This document shows positions 21,596 to 33,433 of a stretch of DNA of 34,805 nucleotides, piece after piece; the stretch's first letter is position 1, and every line of letters starts with the position of its first letter. The stretch is from Akkermansiaceae bacterium (lineage in GTDB: Bacteria > Verrucomicrobiota > Verrucomicrobiia > Verrucomicrobiales > Akkermansiaceae), in contig JAPKCM010000046.1 in NCBI GenBank assembly GCA_028822935.1, positions 1-34,805 of the forward strand. Direction: 5' to 3'. Below the pieces are notes generated by a model. The model saw only the letters and a program-made list of their open reading frames with translations, searched no databases and was not told the origin of the DNA. The position numbers and the translations under genes were made by a program.

Positions 21596-24505
21596 ATGAA
21601 ACGAATCCTTTTTACCTGCTTTGGACTGTCCTTGTTAAGCCACGCTGCGGAGTGGGGACTTCAGCCTTTGAAATACAACCAGGAAGGACTCATCGTCGAT
21701 CTGGGAGTGGGGTTGTGGGCTTGGCCAATGCCGATGGACTACGATGGGGACGGTGATTTTGATTTGGTGGTGTCGTGTCCCGATAAGCCGACCAATGGAT
21801 TCTATTATTTCGAGAATACCACTCAAGATGCGAAGGTGAAGATGCCGGTGTTTCGAGCAGGAGTGCATCTTGGGAAGACCGGGCACAACGTCCAGGTGAG
21901 CTATGTCGATGGAGCACCGAGAGTGCTTCGTGAGAACTACGAATATCTCGATTTTTTGAAGAAAGGTTTTACGCAGCGAGAAAAGATCTATCCCGAGCGC
22001 AATTTCCACGAGAGCCGGGGGGCGACGCGGGCGCACATGTGGCGCTATCTCGATTGGGAGGGGGACGGGGATCAGGACTTGATCGTCGGGCTGGGAGATT
22101 GGTCCGACTACGAATGGGATCACGCTTATGACGCGCAGGGGCGGTGGCGGAATGGAGATCTTCATGGCTGGGTCTACCTCATTGAGAATGAGAATGGGAC
22201 CTACTCGGATCATCCCGTGAAGGTGGAAGCAGGGGGAGCTCCGGTCGATGTCTATGGCTGGCCGAGTCCGAATTTTGGCGACTTCGATGACGATGGTGAT
22301 CTCGATCTTCTCTGTGGTGAGTTCCTCGATGGTTTCACCTATTTTGAAAATATCGGAACGCGTGGTGAACCGAAATATTCGGCGGGTGTTCGTCTGCTCG
22401 ATGGGAAAGGTGAACGTCTCGCGATGCACGTTCAGATGATTACGCCGACGGCCTTTGATTGGGATCGCGATGGCGATTTGGATCTCATCGTAGGTGACGA
22501 AGATGGACGGGTTGCTTTTATGGAAAACGTGTCAGTTGAGGGAACGGAAGTCCCTCAATTTCTCCAGCCGGTTTATTTTCAGCAGGAAGCGGATGAGTTG
22601 AAATTTGGAGCGCTGGCGACGCCTTTCGCACACGATTGGGACGGCGATGGCGATGAGGATATTCTGTCCGGGAACACGGCTGGAAATATCGGCTTCTTCG
22701 AAAATGTGGATGGCAAAGGCACGAAGTGGGCCGCTCCAAAGTTGCTGGAGGTTGATGGTGGGGAGTTTCGGATCATGGCGGGTGAGAATGGCTCGATCCA
22801 AGGGCCGGCTGAGGCGAAGTGGGGTTACACCACTCTGGCGATCGCTGACTGGGACGACGATGGTCGGGATGATATTTTAGTGAATTCGATTTGGTCCAAG
22901 CTGCAACTCTTGCGTCGGACGAAAGAGGGTGGCTTAAGTGAAGGTGCTTTGCCATTTTGGTCGCGGGAGGCGCCTCCGTCTTTTTATTGGTGGCAAGGGC
23001 TTGCTGAGAATTTGCAGACGCAGTGGCGGACCACGCCGATCGCGACAGACTTTGATGATGATGGTCTGCTGGATTTGGTGATTCTGGATCAGGAAGGATA
23101 TCTTACTTGTCAGAGCCGAAAGTGGGAGGAGACGCGCGTCTTTCTTGATGAAAATTTGCGCCCGATTCGACTGAATCAACGGAGTGGAGGAGCGTCAGGA
23201 CGGGTGAAGCTCGCTGTGGTTGATTGGGATGGAGACGGCCGGCTCGATATTCTGATGAACTCAGAAAACGCAACGTGGTGGCGGAATTGTCGTGATGCCG
23301 GAGAAGGCAAGGTAGTCTTGAAAAAAATAGGGAACTTGGCGAAGCGCAACGTGGCGGGACACACGAGTAGTCCGGCAGTTTGTGATTTCGATGGGAATGG
23401 GAAACCTGATCTTTTGGTGGGGTCGGAAAATGGGAAAATCTATTTTATCCGGCATGAGGATTGCGTGACCTTTGATTCTTCTGATCTTGAAGCGCGCGCG
23501 CCGGTGAATGTCAAAAATAGATTTTCTGGTCTCGTGCAGGAGGGCTTCATTTTCACCAAGGCGACGCATAAAAGTTGTCATGCTTCCACGATTGTGGAGA
23601 CCAGTCGGGGCTTAGTGGCGGCTTGGTTTGGAGGAAGTGAGGAAGGGGCGAAGGATGTTGGGATTTGGTCGAGCTATCACGATGGATTGAGCTGGTCGAA
23701 GCCGCGACTGTGGGCCGACGGAGTTCAGCATGAGGCACTCAGATATCCGTGTTGGAATCCGGTGCTTTTTCAAGAGTCTGAAGATGCCCCGATAAGGTTG
23801 TTTTTTAAAGTGGGCCCAAATCCACGGGAGTGGTGGGGGGAGGTGATGGAAAGCGTTGATCGGGGGCGCTCATTTCAACTTTCAAGGCGTTTGCCTGAGG
23901 GGATTCTGGGGCCTGTTCGGTCCAAGCCGCTATTGCAGAATGATGGGTCGCTGTTGTGCCCGACGTCGACAGAAGTCGGAGGCGATTGGAGATTTCACTT
24001 CGAGATCCTCGATAATGGGCGGTGGAATCGAGTGGAGCCTAAAGAGCAAGATCGTCAGGTGATTCAACCGACGTTATTGAAACATCCGAGTGGAAAAGTT
24101 CAGGCGCTTTATCGCTCCAAGCACGGTCTCATTTTTCAAAACGAATCGGGCGATGGGGGAATTTCTTGGAGTCCACTCGAGACGGCAGGGCTCCCAAACA
24201 ACAACGCAGGAATCGAGGCGCTCACGCTGTTCGATGGGCGGCACCTTCTACTCTACAGTCATCTTAAAAAAGGCCGGCATGCGCTGCATTTGGCAGTGAG
24301 TCAGGATGGCAAGCAGTGGCGTGCTGCGGCGGTGATAGAACAATCAAAAAATAGCGAGTTCTCCTATCCTGCGATGATCCAACGGAAGGACGGTCGTGTG
24401 GAGCTGACTTATACCTGGAATCGAACTCGCATTCGGCATCTCACGATTGATCCTGATCGGCTCCAATTAGGAGCGATTTTGACTGAAGAGGACTGGCCTG
24501 ACTGA
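21596..24505 (+). CDS. Secreted FG-GAP/VCBS repeat protein fused to a sialidase-like domain
   Basis: A 969-residue exported protein. Residues 1-18 are a Sec signal peptide. Residues about 45-620 contain nine calcium-loop motifs of FG-GAP/VCBS type (DxDGDGDxD), at about 48, 153, 229, 288, 347, 418, 485, 543 and 597, which should form a beta-propeller. Residues about 645-960 match the predicted-neuraminidase (BNR_2) family: CHASTIVETSRGLVAAWFGG, VGPNPREWWGEV, LPEGILGPVRSKPLL, LLCPTSTE and YPAMIQRKDGRVELTYTW. Asp-box-like motifs are at 693-700, 851-858 and 902-908. It probably binds and cuts or senses extracellular glycans, but true sialidase activity is not shown by sequence. It is divergent from mfd, with a 179-base shared upstream region and no Shine-Dalgarno. 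Confidence 0.88.
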   Translation: MKRILFTCFGLSLLSHAAEWGLQPLKYNQEGLIVDLGVGLWAWPMPMDYDGDGDFDLVVSCPDKPTNGFYYFENTTQDAKVKMPVFRAGVHLGKTGHNVQVSYVDGAPRVLRENYEYLDFLKKGFTQREKIYPERNFHESRGATRAHMWRYLDWEGDGDQDLIVGLGDWSDYEWDHAYDAQGRWRNGDLHGWVYLIENENGTYSDHPVKVEAGGAPVDVYGWPSPNFGDFDDDGDLDLLCGEFLDGFTYFENIGTRGEPKYSAGVRLLDGKGERLAMHVQMITPTAFDWDRDGDLDLIVGDEDGRVAFMENVSVEGTEVPQFLQPVYFQQEADELKFGALATPFAHDWDGDGDEDILSGNTAGNIGFFENVDGKGTKWAAPKLLEVDGGEFRIMAGENGSIQGPAEAKWGYTTLAIADWDDDGRDDILVNSIWSKLQLLRRTKEGGLSEGALPFWSREAPPSFYWWQGLAENLQTQWRTTPIATDFDDDGLLDLVILDQEGYLTCQSRKWEETRVFLDENLRPIRLNQRSGGASGRVKLAVVDWDGDGRLDILMNSENATWWRNCRDAGEGKVVLKKIGNLAKRNVAGHTSSPAVCDFDGNGKPDLLVGSENGKIYFIRHEDCVTFDSSDLEARAPVNVKNRFSGLVQEGFIFTKATHKSCHASTIVETSRGLVAAWFGGSEEGAKDVGIWSSYHDGLSWSKPRLWADGVQHEALRYPCWNPVLFQESEDAPIRLFFKVGPNPREWWGEVMESVDRGRSFQLSRRLPEGILGPVRSKPLLQNDGSLLCPTSTEVGGDWRFHFEILDNGRWNRVEPKEQDRQVIQPTLLKHPSGKVQALYRSKHGLIFQNESGDGGISWSPLETAGLPNNNAGIEALTLFDGRHLLLYSHLKKGRHALHLAVSQDGKQWRAAAVIEQSKNSEFSYPAMIQRKDGRVELTYTWNRTRIRHLTIDPDRLQLGAILTEEDWPD

Positions 24506-25832: not shown

Positions 25833-26447
25833 CTATTTTTCAAGGTTTAGCTTATCCAGCTTGGGATTGATGACTGCGCGGCAGTAGGGGTTCGACTTAT
25901 TTTGGAAGTAGAAGTTTTGGTGATCTTCCTGAGCTTTGTAGAATTCCTCTTTCTTCCTGATCACGGTTGCGATGGGCTTGTCGAAAGCTTCCTGGGCGAT
26001 TTTTTTGGAACCCTCGGAGATTTCCTTTTGCTCGTCAGAGTGATAGAAGATGGCGGTGGCATACTGGGGACCACGGTCAGCACCCTGGCCACCCGCGTCG
26101 GTAGGGTCGTGTGCTTTCCAGAACCATTTCAAGATGGTTTTGGTAGAGACGACGTCAGGATTGTAGACCACTTGAATCACTTCGACATGCCCGGAGGTCT
26201 TACTGCAGACTTGTTCGTAGGTCGGATTGGGAATGTGGCCTCCCATGAATCCCGAGGTGACAGAGGCGACTCCCTCGAGCTGTTGGAAAACGGCTTCGGT
26301 GCACCAGTAGCAGCCTCCGCCGAGAGTGATGGTTTCGCTTTTTTTAGGCATGATTTCTTGGTCGGCTTTGATTTGACCTTCCTTCGGGCCGCTATCGCAG
26401 GAGGTCAAGGCGAGGGTGGCGAGGATGAGTGAGGAAAACATTTTCAT
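25833..26447 (-). CDS. msrA: Peptide methionine sulfoxide reductase MsrA, lipoprotein form
   Basis: A 204-residue protein. The N terminus is a lipoprotein signal with lipobox L14-T15-S16-C17, so this MsrA works on the outside of the inner membrane or in the outer membrane. The catalytic motif GGGCYWCTEAVF has the nucleophile at C46. YATAIFYHSDEQ and DHQNFYFQ are conserved, and the PYC near the C terminus carries a likely resolving cysteine. It repairs oxidised methionine (S-form) in exported proteins. Starts at ATG 26447 or 26441 give nearly the same signal. It begins 13 bases after the repeat-protein gene that ends at 26461, so the two form an operon. No msrB is in the window. Confidence 0.95.
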   Translation of the reverse strand: MKMFSSLILATLALTSCDSGPKEGQIKADQEIMPKKSETITLGGGCYWCTEAVFQQLEGVASVTSGFMGGHIPNPTYEQVCSKTSGHVEVIQVVYNPDVVSTKTILKWFWKAHDPTDAGGQGADRGPQYATAIFYHSDEQKEISEGSKKIAQEAFDKPIATVIRKKEEFYKAQEDHQNFYFQNKSNPYCRAVINPKLDKLNLEK

Positions 26448-26460
26448 GGATTTAAATAGC

Positions 26461-27732
26461 TTAGCGATTTTGTTCTTCAAGTTGGCGTTTCGCACGACGC
26501 ACGACGCTTTCTGGGACATCGTTGTTTTCGATGTAGTTCATTGCTCCAGCGGTGTCTTCGCGCATCCAAGTGCTGAGGACCCGATGGAAAATCCCCTCTT
26601 TTTTACGGGTGTCGGTTACTTTCATAATCCAACTTGCGGCGAGTTCGGGCTCTCTTTTAATGGCGTTGAAAGCAAAGGATTGGATGGTGTCATCAAAGGC
26701 GGGATTTCCTTCGTGCTGCGTGAGCCATGTCGCCGCCTCGCTTGGAGCGAGGGCATTGATGAGGCCGCGTCCCGCTGCCGCTTGGATCGCATCGGGCTGA
26801 CTGTTGACCCAAGCTTGCGCCAGTTTGGGAGAATCGGATGCCCAACCATCGATGATATCAGAAGAGGCTCTGAGGAGAGACGCCTCGCTCACCGAGCCGG
26901 CCCACGAAAGTGCAGCGGCGGGGTCATCTTTGGCCAATCTCGATGCAAGTCTCGCTGCGGCGCCATCACGCAATTGCTCATCGCTGAGTCCATTGATCCA
27001 ATTTTTCGCGGTATCGGGTCCTTGGGCGATGAGTTCATTCAAAACACTCCTGAGTGCTTCTCCGCGACCTTCTGAGTAGGGGAGTTCTTCGAGGAGTTGG
27101 CTTGCCCTGGAGAGATCCTGTGAGGCCATTCCCTTGATGATGCCGACGAGCCATGGATTGGCGTTGCGATAATTCTTGATGTCGTCGAAATTTTCCTTGG
27201 CCCAGACGATGGCGGCTTCTGGTTGCGTCTCTACCCAACTCGCAAGAATGGTTTCTCGCGCGAAAGAGGTGCCGGTGTTTGCCTTGGCGTAGTCGAGAGC
27301 AGAGACCGGGTCGACTTTGGCCCAAGCGGTGAGCAGGATGGCGTACTCGCCCATACGTTCCCTTGTCATTCCCAAGGCGCGAAAGGCGGCGACAACATCT
27401 TTATATTCTCCCGGCTCAAGGTTTTCGACCAGCGCGAGCATTCCTTGGGCTCGGGCGATAGGATCGGTGAGCTTAGCCAATTCAACGACTTCAGCGATCA
27501 CATCAGAACCGATATTTCGGGAGGTAGACGATGGACGAGCGCTATTTTTACGCTCTCCGGGATTCGAGGCATTGGCACTATCGGCTCGAGAGCTAACGCG
27601 GCTCGTTTTTTCCTGGTCCAGTTGCTGAGCGAGATCTTCCTCCGTAGATCCAGAAAATGAGCTTCCTAGATAGAATGCGGCAGCAAAGGAGGCGGCCCAG
27701 CCGGCTGAGAGGAGTCCAAGGCGCTTGGTCAT
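26461..27732 (-). CDS. Membrane-anchored periplasmic repeat protein (copy A)
   Basis: A 423-residue protein without a named family that I can recognise. Residues 4-25 form an N-terminal membrane anchor or uncleaved signal. A polar Ser/Asn/Arg-rich linker (26-75) leads to nine helical units with the pattern W/L-x-x-x-D/E-P-x-x-A-x-x-W, at about 137, 166, 202, 234, 266, 297, 328, 358 and 389. For example, LAKDDPAAALSWAGSV is one unit. Spacing is 29-36 residues, as in a TPR- or Sel1-like solenoid but with a different consensus. It aligns along its whole length with the protein encoded at 28315-29601. I start at ATG 27732, which gives the anchor; upstream codons run into the divergent YlbF-like gene. 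It is co-directional with msrA, 13 bases apart. Confidence 0.85.
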   Translation of the reverse strand: MTKRLGLLSAGWAASFAAAFYLGSSFSGSTEEDLAQQLDQEKTSRVSSRADSANASNPGERKNSARPSSTSRNIGSDVIAEVVELAKLTDPIARAQGMLALVENLEPGEYKDVVAAFRALGMTRERMGEYAILLTAWAKVDPVSALDYAKANTGTSFARETILASWVETQPEAAIVWAKENFDDIKNYRNANPWLVGIIKGMASQDLSRASQLLEELPYSEGRGEALRSVLNELIAQGPDTAKNWINGLSDEQLRDGAAARLASRLAKDDPAAALSWAGSVSEASLLRASSDIIDGWASDSPKLAQAWVNSQPDAIQAAAGRGLINALAPSEAATWLTQHEGNPAFDDTIQSFAFNAIKREPELAASWIMKVTDTRKKEGIFHRVLSTWMREDTAGAMNYIENNDVPESVVRRAKRQLEEQNR

Positions 27733-27826
27733 GTATAAGGAACGTAGCAGAAAATATATTTTGTGCATTCGCGATTTTCTTGATTCGGCGATTGCGCAGT
27801 TTGAAGGGCGAGAGTAAGTGAAGTCC

Positions 27827-28270
27827 ATGCAAATGCTTGAAGATGATTCGGCCGTAATGGCCAAGACCCGTGAACTCTGTGCTGCCATCGTGGAAGACTC
27901 CGAATATCAGGAGCTTCTTGGGAAGGTGGAGACCTTTCTAGGTAATGACGAAGCTCGCTTGAGCTACCAGTCAGTGCACGAGCGCGGACAAGAACTGAAT
28001 CAGAAACAAAGCTCTGGTCTCGAGCTTTCCGAAGGTGAAATTGGAGAATTTGAAACCGCGCGTGAATCGCTTCTCGCAAACCCAGTGGCGTCCGAGTTCT
28101 TAGAGGCGCAACAGACGCTCGAAACTCTCAATAGCGCGGTGAACAAGCACGTGGGAATGACTTTGGAACTCGGTCGGGTTCCTACTGCCGAAGATTTTGC
28201 CCAAAGCGAGGGTGGTGGCTGCTGCGGTGGCGGTGGCGGTGAAAAAAGTGGTGATGGTGGCGGTGGATGA
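27827..28270 (+). CDS. YlbF/YmcA-like protein with glycine-rich Cys-Cys tail
   Basis: A 147-residue, mostly helical, acidic protein. Residues about 8-112 resemble the YlbF family (AVMAKTRELCAAIVEDSEYQ, then NPVASEFLEAQQTLETLNSAVN). In Bacillus the RicA/RicF/RicT (YmcA/YlbF/YaaT) complex affects RNA processing and is reported to carry iron-sulfur clusters. Here the C terminus is a low-complexity tail GGGCCGGGGGEKSGDGGGG with adjacent cysteines C132 and C133, which could bind metal. Starts at GTG 27818, ATG 27827 or ATG 27833 are all possible. No RicT homologue is nearby. It is divergent from repeat protein A (94-base gap) and convergent to repeat protein B. Confidence 0.75.
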   Translation: MQMLEDDSAVMAKTRELCAAIVEDSEYQELLGKVETFLGNDEARLSYQSVHERGQELNQKQSSGLELSEGEIGEFETARESLLANPVASEFLEAQQTLETLNSAVNKHVGMTLELGRVPTAEDFAQSEGGGCCGGGGGEKSGDGGGG

Positions 28271-28285
28271 GGTTGTTAGAACCTT

Positions 28286-28302
28286 GTGAGCAGTCTGCTC
28301 AC
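28286..28302. terminator. Hairpin between convergent genes, possible weak terminator
   Basis: A perfect 7-bp stem, GTGAGCA (28286-28292) with TGCTCAC (28296-28302), closes a three-base loop. It sits in the 44-base gap between the stops of the YlbF-like gene and repeat protein B. Neither side has a T tract, so termination would be weak or factor-assisted. Confidence 0.4.
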
Positions 28303-28314
28303 TCACTAAATTCA

Positions 28315-29601
28315 CTACATGTCGCGCTGTTTCTTCGGCACGATCGAATTGTAGACTTTCTCTGAGATCGATTCTGAGTTTTCCTGTGCCCAGGAAATGG
28401 CGGCTTCTTGGTTGCTCTTTTTCCAAGTGCCTAAGACGTGTCGATAATACTTATCTTGGTCGGCGGGTCGGGAAAGCGTGTGGATGTTTTCTAGAGTTAC
28501 TTCCGGGGAGTCATTCATCGATTCACGGATGAATTGGATGCGTGCGCCATCGAGATCGGGATCGTTTCCGAGTTGTTGGAGCCAGCGTGCGGCTTCTGTG
28601 GGATCACGTCGTGCCAAATACTTCGCCACTCCTTCTGCTGCCTCCGTTAAGGTATCTTGTGGGAGGGTCTGCGTCCAAGTCATTGCGGCGTCGAGATCTT
28701 GAGAGGCATAGATTTCTGAAACGACCTCGGAGGCATCGCGGCGGGAATCCACCGTTTTGATCTGGCTGACCCAGTCTGATGCGGCTTCGGGATCACGTTT
28801 GGCAAGTGCTCCACCGAGGCGTCGGGCGGTATCGCTTTGAAGTTTCGGGTCGTCGATCATCTCGATCCATTCTCCCGCGAATTCGGTGCCTCTGGAAACC
28901 ACTTCTGGAAGCATCTCGCGAATGGCGGTCTTCTGTGTGTCATCCTTGGGCATTTGTTGGACCGCAAGGAGAGCTGCTTGGGGGTCAGAGCGGGCCATGC
29001 CTTGGATGAGGCCAACGATCCAGTCGTTCACTTTTCCGCCGTCCTCGAGTCCCTTGATGGCATTGGCGGCCGCTTCGGGGTTTTCAGCGGCCCACGCGGA
29101 GATGGCAACCTTGCGCGACCAGCCGTCTTGCTCGTTCTGCTTGAGGTATTCGATTGCCACAAGTGGATCTTGGGACATCCAGCTTGAGAGGAGAAAGGAG
29201 AATTCACCTCGGTTGAAGTCGACCCAGCCAGCCTCTGAGAAGCCCGAAATGACGCTTTCGAAGTCGGAGGGGGAGAGTTGATCGATAAATGCGAGGAGCT
29301 GTCGGGTGCGCTCGACCCGATCGCTTACGTTCAGGATATCCGCCAATTGGGAGCACGCCTGTTCTCGGCGTTTTTCGGCGCTACCGTGTAGCGTGAAGGT
29401 GTTTGATCCACGATAAGTCCTTTCTGTTGAGTTCTTTCTGGTTAGGATTGACGCCGATCGGTGACTGGCAGCCACTGCTAAGGAAGAGGGAGCAGGAAGC
29501 GATGCTTGCTTATCGGTAGTCTGGTTCCCGATAAAAACCCCAATTCCAAGTGGGAGTAGCCAGAGAGCCCCAAGTAGCACTTTGCGAGGGAAGGTATTCA
29601 T
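28315..29601 (-). CDS. Membrane-anchored periplasmic repeat protein (copy B)
   Basis: A 428-residue paralogue of the protein at 26461-27732. An N-terminal hydrophobic anchor (residues 8-25, VLLGALWLLPLGIGVFIG) is followed by a Ser/Arg-rich linker and the same series of helical units: WMSQDPLVAIEYLKQN at 141, then units near 170, 202, 234, 266 (LAKRDPEAASDWVSQI), 298, 329 (LARRDPTEAARWLQQL), 361 and 393. Unit positions match copy A almost residue for residue, for example NDWIVGLIQGMARSDP against NPWLVGIIKGMASQDL, so the two arose by duplication and have diverged widely. No catalytic motif is visible; a scaffold or partner-binding role is inference. It is transcribed alone, ends in an Arg/Lys-rich stretch, and is divergent from the SNF2 gene. 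Confidence 0.85.
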   Translation of the reverse strand: MNTFPRKVLLGALWLLPLGIGVFIGNQTTDKQASLPAPSSLAVAASHRSASILTRKNSTERTYRGSNTFTLHGSAEKRREQACSQLADILNVSDRVERTRQLLAFIDQLSPSDFESVISGFSEAGWVDFNRGEFSFLLSSWMSQDPLVAIEYLKQNEQDGWSRKVAISAWAAENPEAAANAIKGLEDGGKVNDWIVGLIQGMARSDPQAALLAVQQMPKDDTQKTAIREMLPEVVSRGTEFAGEWIEMIDDPKLQSDTARRLGGALAKRDPEAASDWVSQIKTVDSRRDASEVVSEIYASQDLDAAMTWTQTLPQDTLTEAAEGVAKYLARRDPTEAARWLQQLGNDPDLDGARIQFIRESMNDSPEVTLENIHTLSRPADQDKYYRHVLGTWKKSNQEAAISWAQENSESISEKVYNSIVPKKQRDM

Positions 29602-29797: not shown

Positions 29798-32700
29798 ATG
29801 GCGAATAGCATGTCAGCACTGAACCCGGACCGGGCCACCCTCAATTTTTTAAATAGTTTCCCTGAGCCAGTGCGTAAGCGTGGTGAGGAGTTACAAGAGG
29901 AGGGGGCAGTCACCCAGATCTTTGGTAATCACCTGTTTATTCAGGGACGCGTCGAGGACAAGAGCGGTATTCACCGGACAACTTTACGCCTTCAGGGGAA
30001 CCGTTGGTTTGGAGGTTGTTCTACTGAAGCCGAAGATATTGCCGGCGCAGTGATGTTTGCTGCGATGCTGGAGCGCCTTCACAGAGGTGAAGATCTTCCT
30101 GAGTCGCCCAACGAATTTGATGACACGCCAGTTGTCGATCTGATTGAGGAAAAACTCGATCGCGAGCTTGATGACAAAGAAGCCGAATTTGTGACCAAGG
30201 TGGAGAAACGTTACCGCCGTTACGTGATTGAAGGAGAGATCCACGATCACGATATGGTCCGTTTAAATCCTCGTTGGGAGATTGCGAGCTACGAGCCACT
30301 TGAGCTTTGGCCAGTTCCTCCAGGGGACATTCTCGAGTTCTGGAACTACATTGCCTACGCCCTCTACAAGAAGAAGCTTCCATACGCTGAGTTCATGGAT
30401 GCCGTGACCGATCTTGAGGCTGTACAGCGTCGGATGCATGACTGGGAGCAAGAGCGTGATGTCGCTGCTTGGTATGATCGCATTGAGAGTGTCAACGAAC
30501 GGCCTCCTCAAGAGATTCCTCACAAGATCGAATTCCGGCTGGTTTCGACGATTAACGAGGCTCGAGTGGAAGCCCGGGAAGAGTTTCAGGATTGGGTTTC
30601 GCTTCGAGAAAAAGGTGAGATCGAGCGTATTGTGAAGCTTTTTGATGCCTCTGCTCTACGCATGGATGCCGCTTCCCAAATTCTCTTTGAGCACTTTCTG
30701 CGCTACGCCGAGAAAACTGGGGAAGCTTATCTTGATTTGGAAAATGAGGATGCTTGCCGCTTCATGAACCTTCTTTTCCATCAGAAGGAATTGAAAGGTT
30801 ACATGGTGAATCTCGACGAAAATGCCTTCCGGGTCGTTGATGAACCTTTAAAATGGCTTTGTGAGGATGACCCTGCAGATCCAAACTCTTTTGGTCTTCA
30901 ATTGGTGACAATTTCAGGTGAAAACGTCTCTCACTCGGTTCGACTTCTTCCTGGTCGCACCGAACTTTACCAGTCAGATGAGACGGTATTCCCTGGGCCG
31001 TCGCGTTGGCTTGAAGATACCGAGATCATGCCTCGGTATAGCATTCCCAAGTCGGTAATCGATTCTTTGGAAGGGGTTGAATTCCTTCGCAAGATTGGTT
31101 CCAGCCTTCCGCTCTCGATGAAGAGGCGGGTTACAGATCTCGATCTCTTCCCGAACTTCAAGATGTGGGTTGAACAAGGACTCACCGCAGCAGAGACAGA
31201 GCACTTGGTGATCGATGTGAAAGCCTTCGAAGCGAAAGGACGTCGGGTCGAAAAACTGATCAAAGCAGGGTGGGATCTCGTCGAACAACAACCTGTGAAA
31301 GGCAAAGCGTTGCTCCGCTTTGCTCGTGAAAAGCTGTATCCTGTTCCTGAGATTCTTCTCGAAATGGGCCTGACCTACGACGAAAAATTGGAGGCCTTTA
31401 AGACACGGATTACAAAGCAATTTCCGGAGAAGTTCGCCGAGTGGATTGGCAAAATGCCTAAGTCACTGGAACTCGATATTGAAGAAAAGCTCAAAACGAT
31501 TCTTGCAGACCCTGTTTCGGCAGCGATTCGATTTGAGGTCGTTAATCAGGAGATTGACTGGTTCGACCTTCGGGTGGTGATCGATGTGGATGGTGTGAAT
31601 CTTTCCAAAATTCAGATTCGCCAGTTGGTGGCAGCCCGTGGTGGCTATGTCCGGATGGACGATGGTTCCTGGATGCGTCTTGAGATCAAGTTGGATCCTG
31701 ATCAGCGCGATGCGGTGACTCGGCTGGGTCTTGATCCATTCGATCTCTCCGGAGAAACCCACCGGATGCACGCGATGCAGCTTGCTGATCCCAAGGCGGC
31801 TGAAGTCTTCGATCCCAAAGCGTGGAAGCGCATTAAGGATCGCGCACGCGACATCAAGATCGATGTGACGCCCCCTGTCCCGGAAGAGTTGAACGCGATT
31901 CTTCGGCCTTATCAGGTTGAAGGATACCAGTTTCTAGCCTACCTCGCGACCAATGGTTTCGGCGGCATTCTTGCCGATGACATGGGTCTTGGTAAGACGA
32001 TTCAGAGTATTACTTATCTTCTCTGGTTGCGTGAATACGCTCCCAAGAATACCAAGAGAAAACTGGGGCCAGCGCTCGTGGTCTGTCCGAAATCTGTTTT
32101 GGATGTTTGGGCGACGGAAGTAGGTAAATTTGCACCTCAACTAAAATTAAAGGTTCTCCGCACGCGCGATGATCTGGACATTGACGAGGTAAATAACGTG
32201 CTTGATATTCTTGTATTGAACTACGCTCAGCTTCGAGTTTGTGGTGATGAATTGAATAAAATTCGCTGGTTGACGGTGATCCTCGACGAGGGACAGCAGA
32301 TTAAGAACCCTGACTCTAAAGCAGCAAAATGCGCTCGTGAATTGGATGCCGAGAATCGATTGGTCCTTACCGGAACACCGATTGAGAACCGACTGATGGA
32401 CATGTGGTCTCTCATGGCCTTTGCCATGCCGGGGGTTCTCGGAACTCGCGCTTATTTCAAGCGACGTTTTGATAAGAGAAAGGATCCTTCAAGCCAGGCC
32501 CGCCTTGCCGCACGTCTGCGCCCATTCCTTCTCCGTCGGACCAAGCTGCAGGTTGCCAAGGATCTCCCGCCAAGAACGGAAGAAGAAGTATTCGCCGGAA
32601 TGGAGGGAATCCAAGAGGAACTCTACAAGGCCGAGCTCAAGAGAATTCAGAAGGCACTTCTGGGTCTCGATTCCGACGAGGCAGTAAAGAAGAATTCCTT

Positions 32701-33433
32701 TGCGATTCTTCAAGGTCTCATGCGCTTGCGTCAGATCTGTTGTCATCCAGGTCTCATCGATCCGAAATGGCTTAAGGAAGAGAGTGCGAAGATGAGTGCG
32801 CTCTTTTATCTCCTCGATCAGCTGCGTGAGGAAAACCACAAGGTCCTCGTGTTTTCCCAGTTCGTTTCGATGCTTGATATCATCAAGACGCGTCTGGAGG
32901 TTGAGAGTCGTCCGTTCAACTACCTCACTGGTCAGACCAAGGACCGGAAAGGGGAGATTGAGAAGTTCCAGACCACGAAGGATCCTTCGGTGTTCCTGCT
33001 TTCCCTGAAAGCGGGTGGAGCGGGTCTGAACTTGACTTCGGCATCTTACGTCATCCTTTACGATCCATGGTGGAACCCTGCTGTGGAGAACCAGGCGATC
33101 GACCGGACGCACCGGATTGGTCAGAAGAACAAGGTCATTGCCTACCGACTTCTTACCCGCGATACCGTGGAAGAGAAAATTCGGATCTTGCAGCATCAGA
33201 AGACCGCTCTGGTTACCAATATCTTGGGAGATGAGGGCTTTGCCTCGAATCTCGGAATGGAGGATCTCCAGTTTATCCTCAGTCATGGAGGAAGTGAAGA
33301 AGATGACATGGGGACTCCGCCACCACCACCGATGAAGGAGGCTAAGGTGTTGGAAGAACCGATGACCAAGAAGAGGGTCGCGGCCGCTACTAAAATTGCC
33401 CGAAAGGCAGCCAAGAAGGAGCCGAAGAAATAA
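29798..33433 (+). CDS. SNF2 family ATPase/helicase-like protein with degenerate SWIM-type N terminus
   Basis: A 1211-residue protein. Residues about 23-75 look like the region that carries a SWIM zinc finger in bacterial SNF2 proteins, but only one Cys (in WFGGCST) remains. Residues about 80-690 are a long charged region I cannot assign. The SNF2 motor begins at about 695 (LRPYQVEGYQFLAYLATNG). Walker A is D728-MGLGK-T734, motif II is D830-EGQ, then GTPIENRLMDMWSL. The second lobe has VLVFSQFVSMLDII, LLSLKAGGAGLNLTSA, DPWWNPAVENQAIDRTHRIG (about 1089-1108). The tail is Lys/Ala-rich with a PPPPP run. It should translocate on double-stranded DNA or remodel a DNA-bound protein such as RNA polymerase. 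It is a single gene; no methyltransferase or nuclease partner is beside it. Confidence 0.93.
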   Translation: MANSMSALNPDRATLNFLNSFPEPVRKRGEELQEEGAVTQIFGNHLFIQGRVEDKSGIHRTTLRLQGNRWFGGCSTEAEDIAGAVMFAAMLERLHRGEDLPESPNEFDDTPVVDLIEEKLDRELDDKEAEFVTKVEKRYRRYVIEGEIHDHDMVRLNPRWEIASYEPLELWPVPPGDILEFWNYIAYALYKKKLPYAEFMDAVTDLEAVQRRMHDWEQERDVAAWYDRIESVNERPPQEIPHKIEFRLVSTINEARVEAREEFQDWVSLREKGEIERIVKLFDASALRMDAASQILFEHFLRYAEKTGEAYLDLENEDACRFMNLLFHQKELKGYMVNLDENAFRVVDEPLKWLCEDDPADPNSFGLQLVTISGENVSHSVRLLPGRTELYQSDETVFPGPSRWLEDTEIMPRYSIPKSVIDSLEGVEFLRKIGSSLPLSMKRRVTDLDLFPNFKMWVEQGLTAAETEHLVIDVKAFEAKGRRVEKLIKAGWDLVEQQPVKGKALLRFAREKLYPVPEILLEMGLTYDEKLEAFKTRITKQFPEKFAEWIGKMPKSLELDIEEKLKTILADPVSAAIRFEVVNQEIDWFDLRVVIDVDGVNLSKIQIRQLVAARGGYVRMDDGSWMRLEIKLDPDQRDAVTRLGLDPFDLSGETHRMHAMQLADPKAAEVFDPKAWKRIKDRARDIKIDVTPPVPEELNAILRPYQVEGYQFLAYLATNGFGGILADDMGLGKTIQSITYLLWLREYAPKNTKRKLGPALVVCPKSVLDVWATEVGKFAPQLKLKVLRTRDDLDIDEVNNVLDILVLNYAQLRVCGDELNKIRWLTVILDEGQQIKNPDSKAAKCARELDAENRLVLTGTPIENRLMDMWSLMAFAMPGVLGTRAYFKRRFDKRKDPSSQARLAARLRPFLLRRTKLQVAKDLPPRTEEEVFAGMEGIQEELYKAELKRIQKALLGLDSDEAVKKNSFAILQGLMRLRQICCHPGLIDPKWLKEESAKMSALFYLLDQLREENHKVLVFSQFVSMLDIIKTRLEVESRPFNYLTGQTKDRKGEIEKFQTTKDPSVFLLSLKAGGAGLNLTSASYVILYDPWWNPAVENQAIDRTHRIGQKNKVIAYRLLTRDTVEEKIRILQHQKTALVTNILGDEGFASNLGMEDLQFILSHGGSEEDDMGTPPPPPMKEAKVLEEPMTKKRVAAATKIARKAAKKEPKK

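Follow-up and report, generated by a model that had tools for sequence, protein, structure and literature searches.

Introduction

Among the extracytoplasmic function (ECF) sigma factors, the groups ECF48, ECF52 and ECF53 of Actinobacteria (SCO4117 is an example) are described, in the excerpts of PMC8999054 and PMC5826349 on which we draw, as proteins that combine a sigma factor with a zinc finger, a membrane helix and an outer domain, and for ECF52 and for IutY proteolytic release has been proposed or reported in the same excerpts. ECF42 carries a C-terminal extension of about 200 residues of TPR that is thought to bind a partner (PMC8999054, in part). The Planctomycetes–Verrucomicrobia–Chlamydiae (PVC) group has membrane coat-like proteins, in which an N-terminal beta-propeller is followed by stacked helix pairs (PMC2799638, in part). 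Here we describe two genes, RepA and RepB, from an Akkermansiaceae bacterium (phylum Verrucomicrobiota). They lie in the 34,805-nucleotide stretch formed by positions 1 to 34,805, forward strand, of contig JAPKCM010000046.1 (GenBank assembly GCA_028822935.1), hereafter the window; L and G numbers below are our labels for loci and genomes. Their products carry a degenerate helical repeat, termed the W-DP repeat, that also occurs behind a membrane helix in ECF-type sigma factor fusions. We put at about 0.5 the probability that RepA and RepB are sigma-less, membrane-anchored, protein-binding solenoids of the periplasm that derive from a paired sensor module. A literature search, far from exhaustive and drawing in part on excerpts, yielded no paper on the W-DP repeat or on such fusions in Verrucomicrobia, and absence from print is not claimed.

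The two genes and their predicted parts are as follows.

26461-27732, minus strand: RepA, 423 residues from the ATG at 27732; predicted periplasmic, membrane-anchored alpha-solenoid
27667-27720, minus strand: predicted membrane anchor of RepA, about residues 5-22; modest hydropathy of 1.36 over the best 17 residues
26524-27354, minus strand: predicted solenoid of RepA, residues 127-403, nine hairpins (AlphaFold and unit similarity)
28315-29601, minus strand: RepB, 428 residues; predicted periplasmic, membrane-anchored alpha-solenoid, sister of RepA
29527-29580, minus strand: predicted membrane anchor of RepB, about residues 8-25; hydropathy of 2.42 over a 17-residue stretch
28381-29211, minus strand: predicted solenoid of RepB, residues 131-407, nine hairpins (AlphaFold and unit similarity)

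The longest open reading frame (ORF) at RepA begins at 27888 and encodes 475 residues.

Results

Kinship of RepA, RepB and the sigma factor fusions

BLASTP aligned RepA and RepB with 27% identity over 350 residues (E 1e-42), and a comparison of their profiles by hhalign gave a probability of 100 (E 5.5e-67) over 426 columns that include the anchor. Judged by their sequences the two are diverged sister paralogues, homologous along their length; a preliminary description of the locus, which had taken the products for related copies, is borne out both by the profile comparison and by the trees below, in which they form sister clades.

The repeats were also found in single ORFs behind Sigma70 regions 2 and 4. 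Pfam revealed four complete examples, region 4 scoring below the cut-off in one, while a fifth sigma-bearing protein displayed region 4 only, at the point where its contig ends. A set of 24 long sigma ORFs was picked by hand, partly from candidates listed, and does not represent all sigma genes; 18 of these scored E 1e-11 to 1e-63 against the family profile (values for the 24-protein file), the other six E >0.04. The RepA-type profile by itself recovered 17 of the fusions at E 3e-5 or better, but not L177 (0.04). The fusions derive from G050 (11), G300 (four), G303 (one) and G013 (two), the last a member of the window's genus that is 85% complete with 5% contamination, and in which the fusion at L059 is cut by a contig end. 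All 18 contain a hydrophobic helix, with a mean hydropathy of 1.56-2.51, between the sigma part and the repeats. The profile of RepA and RepB aligned with that of 17 fusions at an hhalign probability of 99.9 (E 9.2e-34, 337 columns), residues 81-423 of RepB being matched to fusion residues 291-629, and the fusion profile, in turn, recovered RepA from its own genome at E 1.7e-35 across profile positions 256-650. When 145 genomes were searched with the fusion profile, with up to eight candidates scored in each, 20 matched at E 1e-30.

Directly downstream of 13 of the 18 fusions lies a second solenoid gene that lacks a sigma domain, with a 4-bp overlap in seven cases, and all 13 of these partners display a hydrophobic N-terminal helix. 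A tree of 41 rows joined RepA and RepB to three G300 fusions and the partner of each (bootstrap 100, Shimodaira–Hasegawa-like approximate likelihood ratio 98); within it the fusions and the partners formed two sister clades (98/93) and RepA grouped with RepB (95/94). A quick tree of 70 rows agrees. It should be emphasized that the 41 rows were chosen and have long branches, and that RepA was recovered as one clade at only 77/96. In the first tree the labels RepA and RepB came from profile scores, making the grouping partly circular. Rows were excluded from this tree if they were shorter than 380 residues, contained over 20 unknown residues or had a C-terminus that was repeated; two distant genes, from L043 and L083, were likewise excluded. 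We infer at least two origins of paired solenoids, one with a sigma factor attached and one without.

The window's own genome contains, on contig C90 (L069:4785-6472), a fusion remnant followed by an intact solenoid gene. Of the sigma part only the first ~120 residues are present, together with a stretch, in another frame, that resembles the last 45 residues of the solenoid. In G013 the syntenic locus L162 carries the fusion in one piece, and the next genes are 76% identical over 561 residues. On the basis of this comparison the notion that the L069 sigma gene is a split form of the fusion was rejected; the locus has the appearance of a fusion gene that has decayed or was mis-assembled.

Predicted architecture of RepA and RepB

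AlphaFold models of the two proteins, predicted singly, display the same order of parts, namely anchor, linker, three N-terminal helices and an alpha-solenoid of nine helical hairpins. Mean predicted local distance difference test (pLDDT) scores were 84.6 for RepB and 80.0 for RepA. Confidence per block was 85-98 in the RepB solenoid, the ordered part being mostly above 90, and mostly above 85 in the ordered part of RepA, where residues 121-130 (66) and 181-190 (58) form weak blocks. The second helices start at residues 146, 175, 207, 239, 271, 303, 334, 366 and 398 of RepB and at 142, 171, 207, 239, 271, 302, 330, 362 and 394 of RepA. The resulting step of 28-36 residues from unit to unit agrees with the nine units of about 29-36 residues, at matching positions, that had been read from the sequence by eye in the preliminary description. 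In 11 of the 18 predicted units the turn between the helices comprises a single residue, often at D-P.

When the proteins were cut at the second-helix starts, the mean pairwise BLOSUM62 score between units was 11.0 for RepB and 6.0 for RepA. The controls, 2000 trials of each, gave about -24.6 +/- 2.0 when the sequence was shuffled, with no score above -17, and about -24.1 +/- 2.5 when the anchors were displaced, with no score above -14. Pooling the units gives the consensus A-x-x-x-(L/V)-(L/I)-x-x-(W/L)-A-x-x-D-P-x-x-A-x-x-W. This motif is degenerate: the proline occurs in 13 of the 18 units, the preceding aspartate in nine, the alanine at +3 in 17 and the tryptophan at +6 in 11.

Each protein has, as had been proposed, one hydrophobic stretch near its N-terminus followed by a Ser-rich linker. 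Only 4-7 residues precede the anchor, and from residue 130 onward no other stretch exceeds a mean hydropathy of 1.0. The linker (residues 27-72), predicted to be disordered, comprises 30-33% Ser+Thr and 13-15% Arg+Lys. In RepA, K3 and R4 stand before the anchor and acidic residues after it, and in RepB the anchor is preceded by R6 and K7. These flanking charges suggest that the N-terminus is inside and the C-terminus outside, a prediction that agrees with the lipoprotein signal on the adjacent gene product MsrA.

Searches against known families and folds

In the window, neither RepA nor RepB had a match beyond chance in Pfam or NCBIfam up to E 10, and this holds for TPR, Sel1, sigma, FecR and propeller families alike; the earlier view that the consensus is not that of TPR, Sel1 or HEAT is consistent with these searches, and no known repeat family spanning the whole length of either protein emerged. 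In 21 RepB-type and 24 RepA-type proteins, those of the window included, no TPR, Sel1 or HEAT match reached E 1, and only scattered weak Pfam matches were seen. In none of the proteins scanned did a Pfam or NCBIfam model fit the W-DP repeat. Profiles of the RepA and RepB types matched nothing among PDB sequences better than E 0.15, and Foldseek returned no PDB match to the RepB model at E 0.001 or better. Three kinds of match were judged to be chance: VID27_PH, weak at E 0.0023; DUF6779 in four of the 24 RepA-type proteins (best E 0.00044); and PDB entry 3zpj (E 0.0038), with antibody chains, obtained with a profile of distant members. RepA had no match at E 1e-3 in plasmid and phage collections.

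It could be argued that RepA and RepB belong to the TPR/Sel1 superfamily, have a shortened loop and share no special function. Sel1 has the same D-x-x-x-A-x-x-W spacing. The units are helical hairpins, and among 23 mostly more distant members weak matches to TPR_30 were seen in two (best E 0.019) and to Sel1 in one (best E 0.051). Structure comparison by VIA, the only such comparison made for RepA, gave Z scores of 7-12 to PPR, ARM, HEAT and other solenoids alike, and the highest, 11-12, were to PPR-type chains. The window proteins themselves, however, lack a TPR or Sel1 match at the threshold given above, and a Z score of 11-12 is within the range that the tool gives for helical repeats without true kinship; the highest rows, which comprise PPR, spliceosomal and importin-type solenoids, were not used as evidence of kinship. 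Membership of this superfamily in that sense appears quite improbable.

Kinship with the PVC membrane coat-like proteins, whose stacked alpha-helix pairs shape membranes, was also considered. These proteins occur in the same group of phyla and are, according to the available part of PMC2799638, membrane-associated alpha-solenoids. Their N-terminal beta-propeller, however, is absent from RepA and RepB, which begin with an anchor and a disordered linker and match no propeller family, and on these architectural grounds such a kinship is highly improbable.

The wider W-DP hairpin family

The window's own genome has about ten family genes, RepA and RepB included, the best paralogue scoring E 4e-49 with the profile of RepA and RepB; one member (L071) follows sigma and FecR genes. 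In a sample of the phylum searched with that profile, matches at E 1e-6 occurred in at least 56 of 288 genomes, a lower bound from up to six scored candidates per genome; the 20 listed genomes of genus g3, in the same taxonomic family, returned no matches. A broader profile identified 107 matching stretches in one genome of the order and 58 in one of the family (these are stretches, not genes). A hydrophobic N-terminal helix before the repeats passes a hydropathy of 1.3 in 76 of 79 collected members, RepA doing so barely (1.36).

Several family loci have distinctive surroundings. At L148:732-14931 (G300) 12 consecutive ORFs were assigned to the family, the weakest at 21-26 bits, which suggests tandem expansion; a smaller set occurs in L147. 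Family genes lie near DUF1501, PSD1/PSCyt or DUF1552/PSD4-type genes in L070, L150 and L161. In L069 and L071 their neighbours encode large ankyrin/beta-propeller proteins, of which one has a sulfatase domain.

The RepA-RepB cluster in the genus

The genes that accompany RepA and RepB in the window are listed below.

27818-28270, plus strand: YlbF-like gene between RepA and RepB, 150 residues from the GTG at 27818
27733-27817, no strand assigned: 85-bp gap from which RepA and the YlbF-like gene read outward
25833-26447, minus strand: MsrA, with a lipoprotein signal (Pfam PMSR, E 1.7e-58)
29798-33433, plus strand: SNF2-family helicase (Pfam SNF2-rel_dom and Helicase_C), divergent from RepB; a syntenic marker

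The middle gene belongs to the YlbF/YmcA family (Pfam Com_YlbF, 58.1 bits, cut-off 23.9) and may alternatively start at the ATG at 27827 or 27833. It is divergent from RepA and convergent with RepB, and RepA and RepB, having this gene between them on the opposite strand, do not form a simple single operon. A sigma-70-like promoter was not found in the 85-bp gap, where a scan for promoters and terminators did no better than on shuffled sequence. The probable ATG of MsrA lies 13 bp past the end of RepA in the same direction, and the two genes are likely to be in the same operon. A cysteine follows the hydrophobic start of MsrA both in the window and in relatives, the latter judged by eye. The helicase is 85-94% identical, and in the same place, in relatives.

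The YlbF-like protein ends in a glycine-rich stretch that contains a Cys-Cys pair, a tail shared by 39 of 41 printed rows (many of the rows represent one genome twice), and it matches the NCBIfam 'halo-CC-star' model HcsL weakly, below the cut-off. In Bacillus RicF the C-terminal cysteines bind an iron–sulfur cluster (PMC6751060, in part). Elsewhere in the window, positions 21596-24505 (plus strand) encode a 969-residue protein in which FG-GAP repeats precede a BNR (sialidase-like) domain (Pfam).

Conservation was evaluated in 27 genomes of the genus, the window's own included and several of them incomplete, with presence scored by profile and BLAST. Strong RepB genes occur in 20 and strong RepA genes in 21, with one further, interrupted RepA copy; 18 genomes have both, four have RepA only (one of them the interrupted copy), two have RepB only and three have neither. 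Where both are present, 15 of the 18 genomes keep RepA, YlbF and RepB together on a single contig; these are the window and L038-L051, one of the latter having a RepA that extends past the end of its contig. In the remaining three the contigs break inside the cluster (G020, G022) or RepB is on another contig (G011). Within the genus the gene order MsrA-RepA-YlbF-RepB-SNF2 is common. Outside the genus YlbF is adjacent to RepB (L055, L098, L099, L122) or RepA (L060, L126), and thus the three-gene arrangement may be ancestral.

The preliminary description had suggested that selection maintains two versions of the protein, perhaps as a hetero-oligomeric periplasmic scaffold. In favour of this, the two are sister paralogues commonly kept around YlbF, and solenoid pairs recur in the sigma fusion modules. 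An obligate complex, however, is not supported by the genomes in which either copy is absent, and this includes contiguous clusters: in L061, L062 and L063 no RepB is present between YlbF and SNF2, which are 294-462 bp apart, and in L052 no RepA is present between YlbF and MsrA, which are 96 bp apart. Within these gaps, delimited by draft-genome ORFs, tblastn detected only 9- and 18-residue matches (E 0.35 and 1.8). A genome from a different genus carries the two genes on separate contigs (L055, L056). The four genomes with RepA only and the two with RepB only thus make an obligate hetero-oligomeric scaffold unlikely. The pair is old and has often been retained, but neither member appears to need the other.

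The neighbouring MsrA raises the possibility that RepA serves methionine repair in the envelope as a periplasmic adaptor, bringing MsrA or the oxidised clients of MsrA into position; RepB and the sigma link would then be incidental. The lipobox-bearing MsrA follows RepA not only in the window but in 18 of the 20 other genus loci with DNA beyond RepA. MsrA, however, stays beside YlbF where RepA is absent (L052); two loci of the genus lack it, L062 downstream of RepA and L059 next to an additional RepA-type gene; none was found at 10 RepA-type loci outside the genus; and RepB has no such partner. This dedicated adaptor role is unlikely. For the genus alone, the neighbourhood suggests that RepA works in a setting of envelope repair. 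In one RepA-RepB cluster (L043:9473-12738, G009) two distant tandem family genes (46 and 29 bits) lie directly downstream of MsrA.

Discussion

The homology, the pairing and the gene order reported here are the results of search tools, and on them, together with a predicted fold and topology, we build the reading of RepA and RepB as sigma-less receptors derived from a paired sensor module. In this scheme the W-DP solenoid would be a protein-binding receptor in the periplasm. In the sigma fusions, by analogy with ECF52 and IutY, the solenoid would retain the sigma factor at the membrane, to be released by some event in the periplasm. RepA and RepB would represent the receptor or adaptor pair on its own, free of any sigma part. 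In envelope stress or repair RepA may work together with MsrA, the lipoprotein whose gene lies just downstream, and RepB would be a second, separately dispensable receptor.

Several observations weigh against this reading. No sigma factor is encoded within the window block and, with 4-7 residues before the anchor, RepA and RepB alone cannot bind a cytoplasmic sigma factor. Their topology is predicted from hydropathy and flanking charges, and the positive-inside signal is weak (a mean of 1.85 K/R before the helix and 1.28 after it in 79 members). The solenoid fold is generic. A comparable helix is present in three of the six long sigma ORFs outside the family, indicating that tethering is not special to the W-DP family but occurs with other outer domains. 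The best matches in the 145 genomes mostly comprise the sigma and membrane parts only, and thus fusions with a solenoid have been shown in four genomes only. The RepA-type loci without MsrA, listed above, also count on this side.

More broadly, we tentatively propose that Verrucomicrobiota possess a large, as yet unnamed family of two-subunit periplasmic sensors, in which a helix-tethered ECF-type sigma factor fused to a W-DP solenoid would work with a partner solenoid whose gene comes directly afterwards, often with an overlap. One genome has at least 11 of these fusions. RepA and RepB would be a conserved, sigma-less offshoot of this module with an envelope role of its own. The sigma link gives a family of hypothetical proteins a testable role in periplasmic sensing and transcription control, and raises the concrete question of what a sigma-less receptor pair does beside a methionine-sulfoxide reductase.

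Comparison with known systems

Similar to Sel1, TPR and PPR proteins, RepA and RepB consist of antiparallel helical hairpins of ~28-36 residues, but they lack a profile match to these families and have the one-residue inter-helix turn in 11 of 18 units. With the PVC coat proteins they share an alpha-helix-pair solenoid in Verrucomicrobia; they differ from these proteins, as described in the part of PMC2799638 available, in having no predicted strands and a single membrane anchor. The family also touches FecR-type sigma operons, in that the own-genome paralogue of L071 follows sigma and FecR genes, whereas RepA and RepB have no FecR match and almost no cytoplasmic part. Like ECF42, the W-DP fusions consist of a sigma factor followed by helical repeats; unlike ECF42, for which the excerpt consulted mentions no membrane helix, they have such a helix and a different repeat. 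RepA and RepB themselves resemble the outer half of a tethered ECF sigma factor but lack a sigma domain, the feature that defines the group (Pfam and NCBIfam, up to E 10). Pfam gave no zinc finger match for any of the five sigma-bearing proteins submitted to it. The fusions nevertheless resemble ECF48, ECF52 and ECF53, as these are portrayed in the excerpts cited, in combining a sigma domain, one membrane helix and a large outer domain. In contrast with these actinobacterial groups, the outer domain of the W-DP fusions is a solenoid rather than a carbohydrate-binding domain, and a second solenoid gene often follows.

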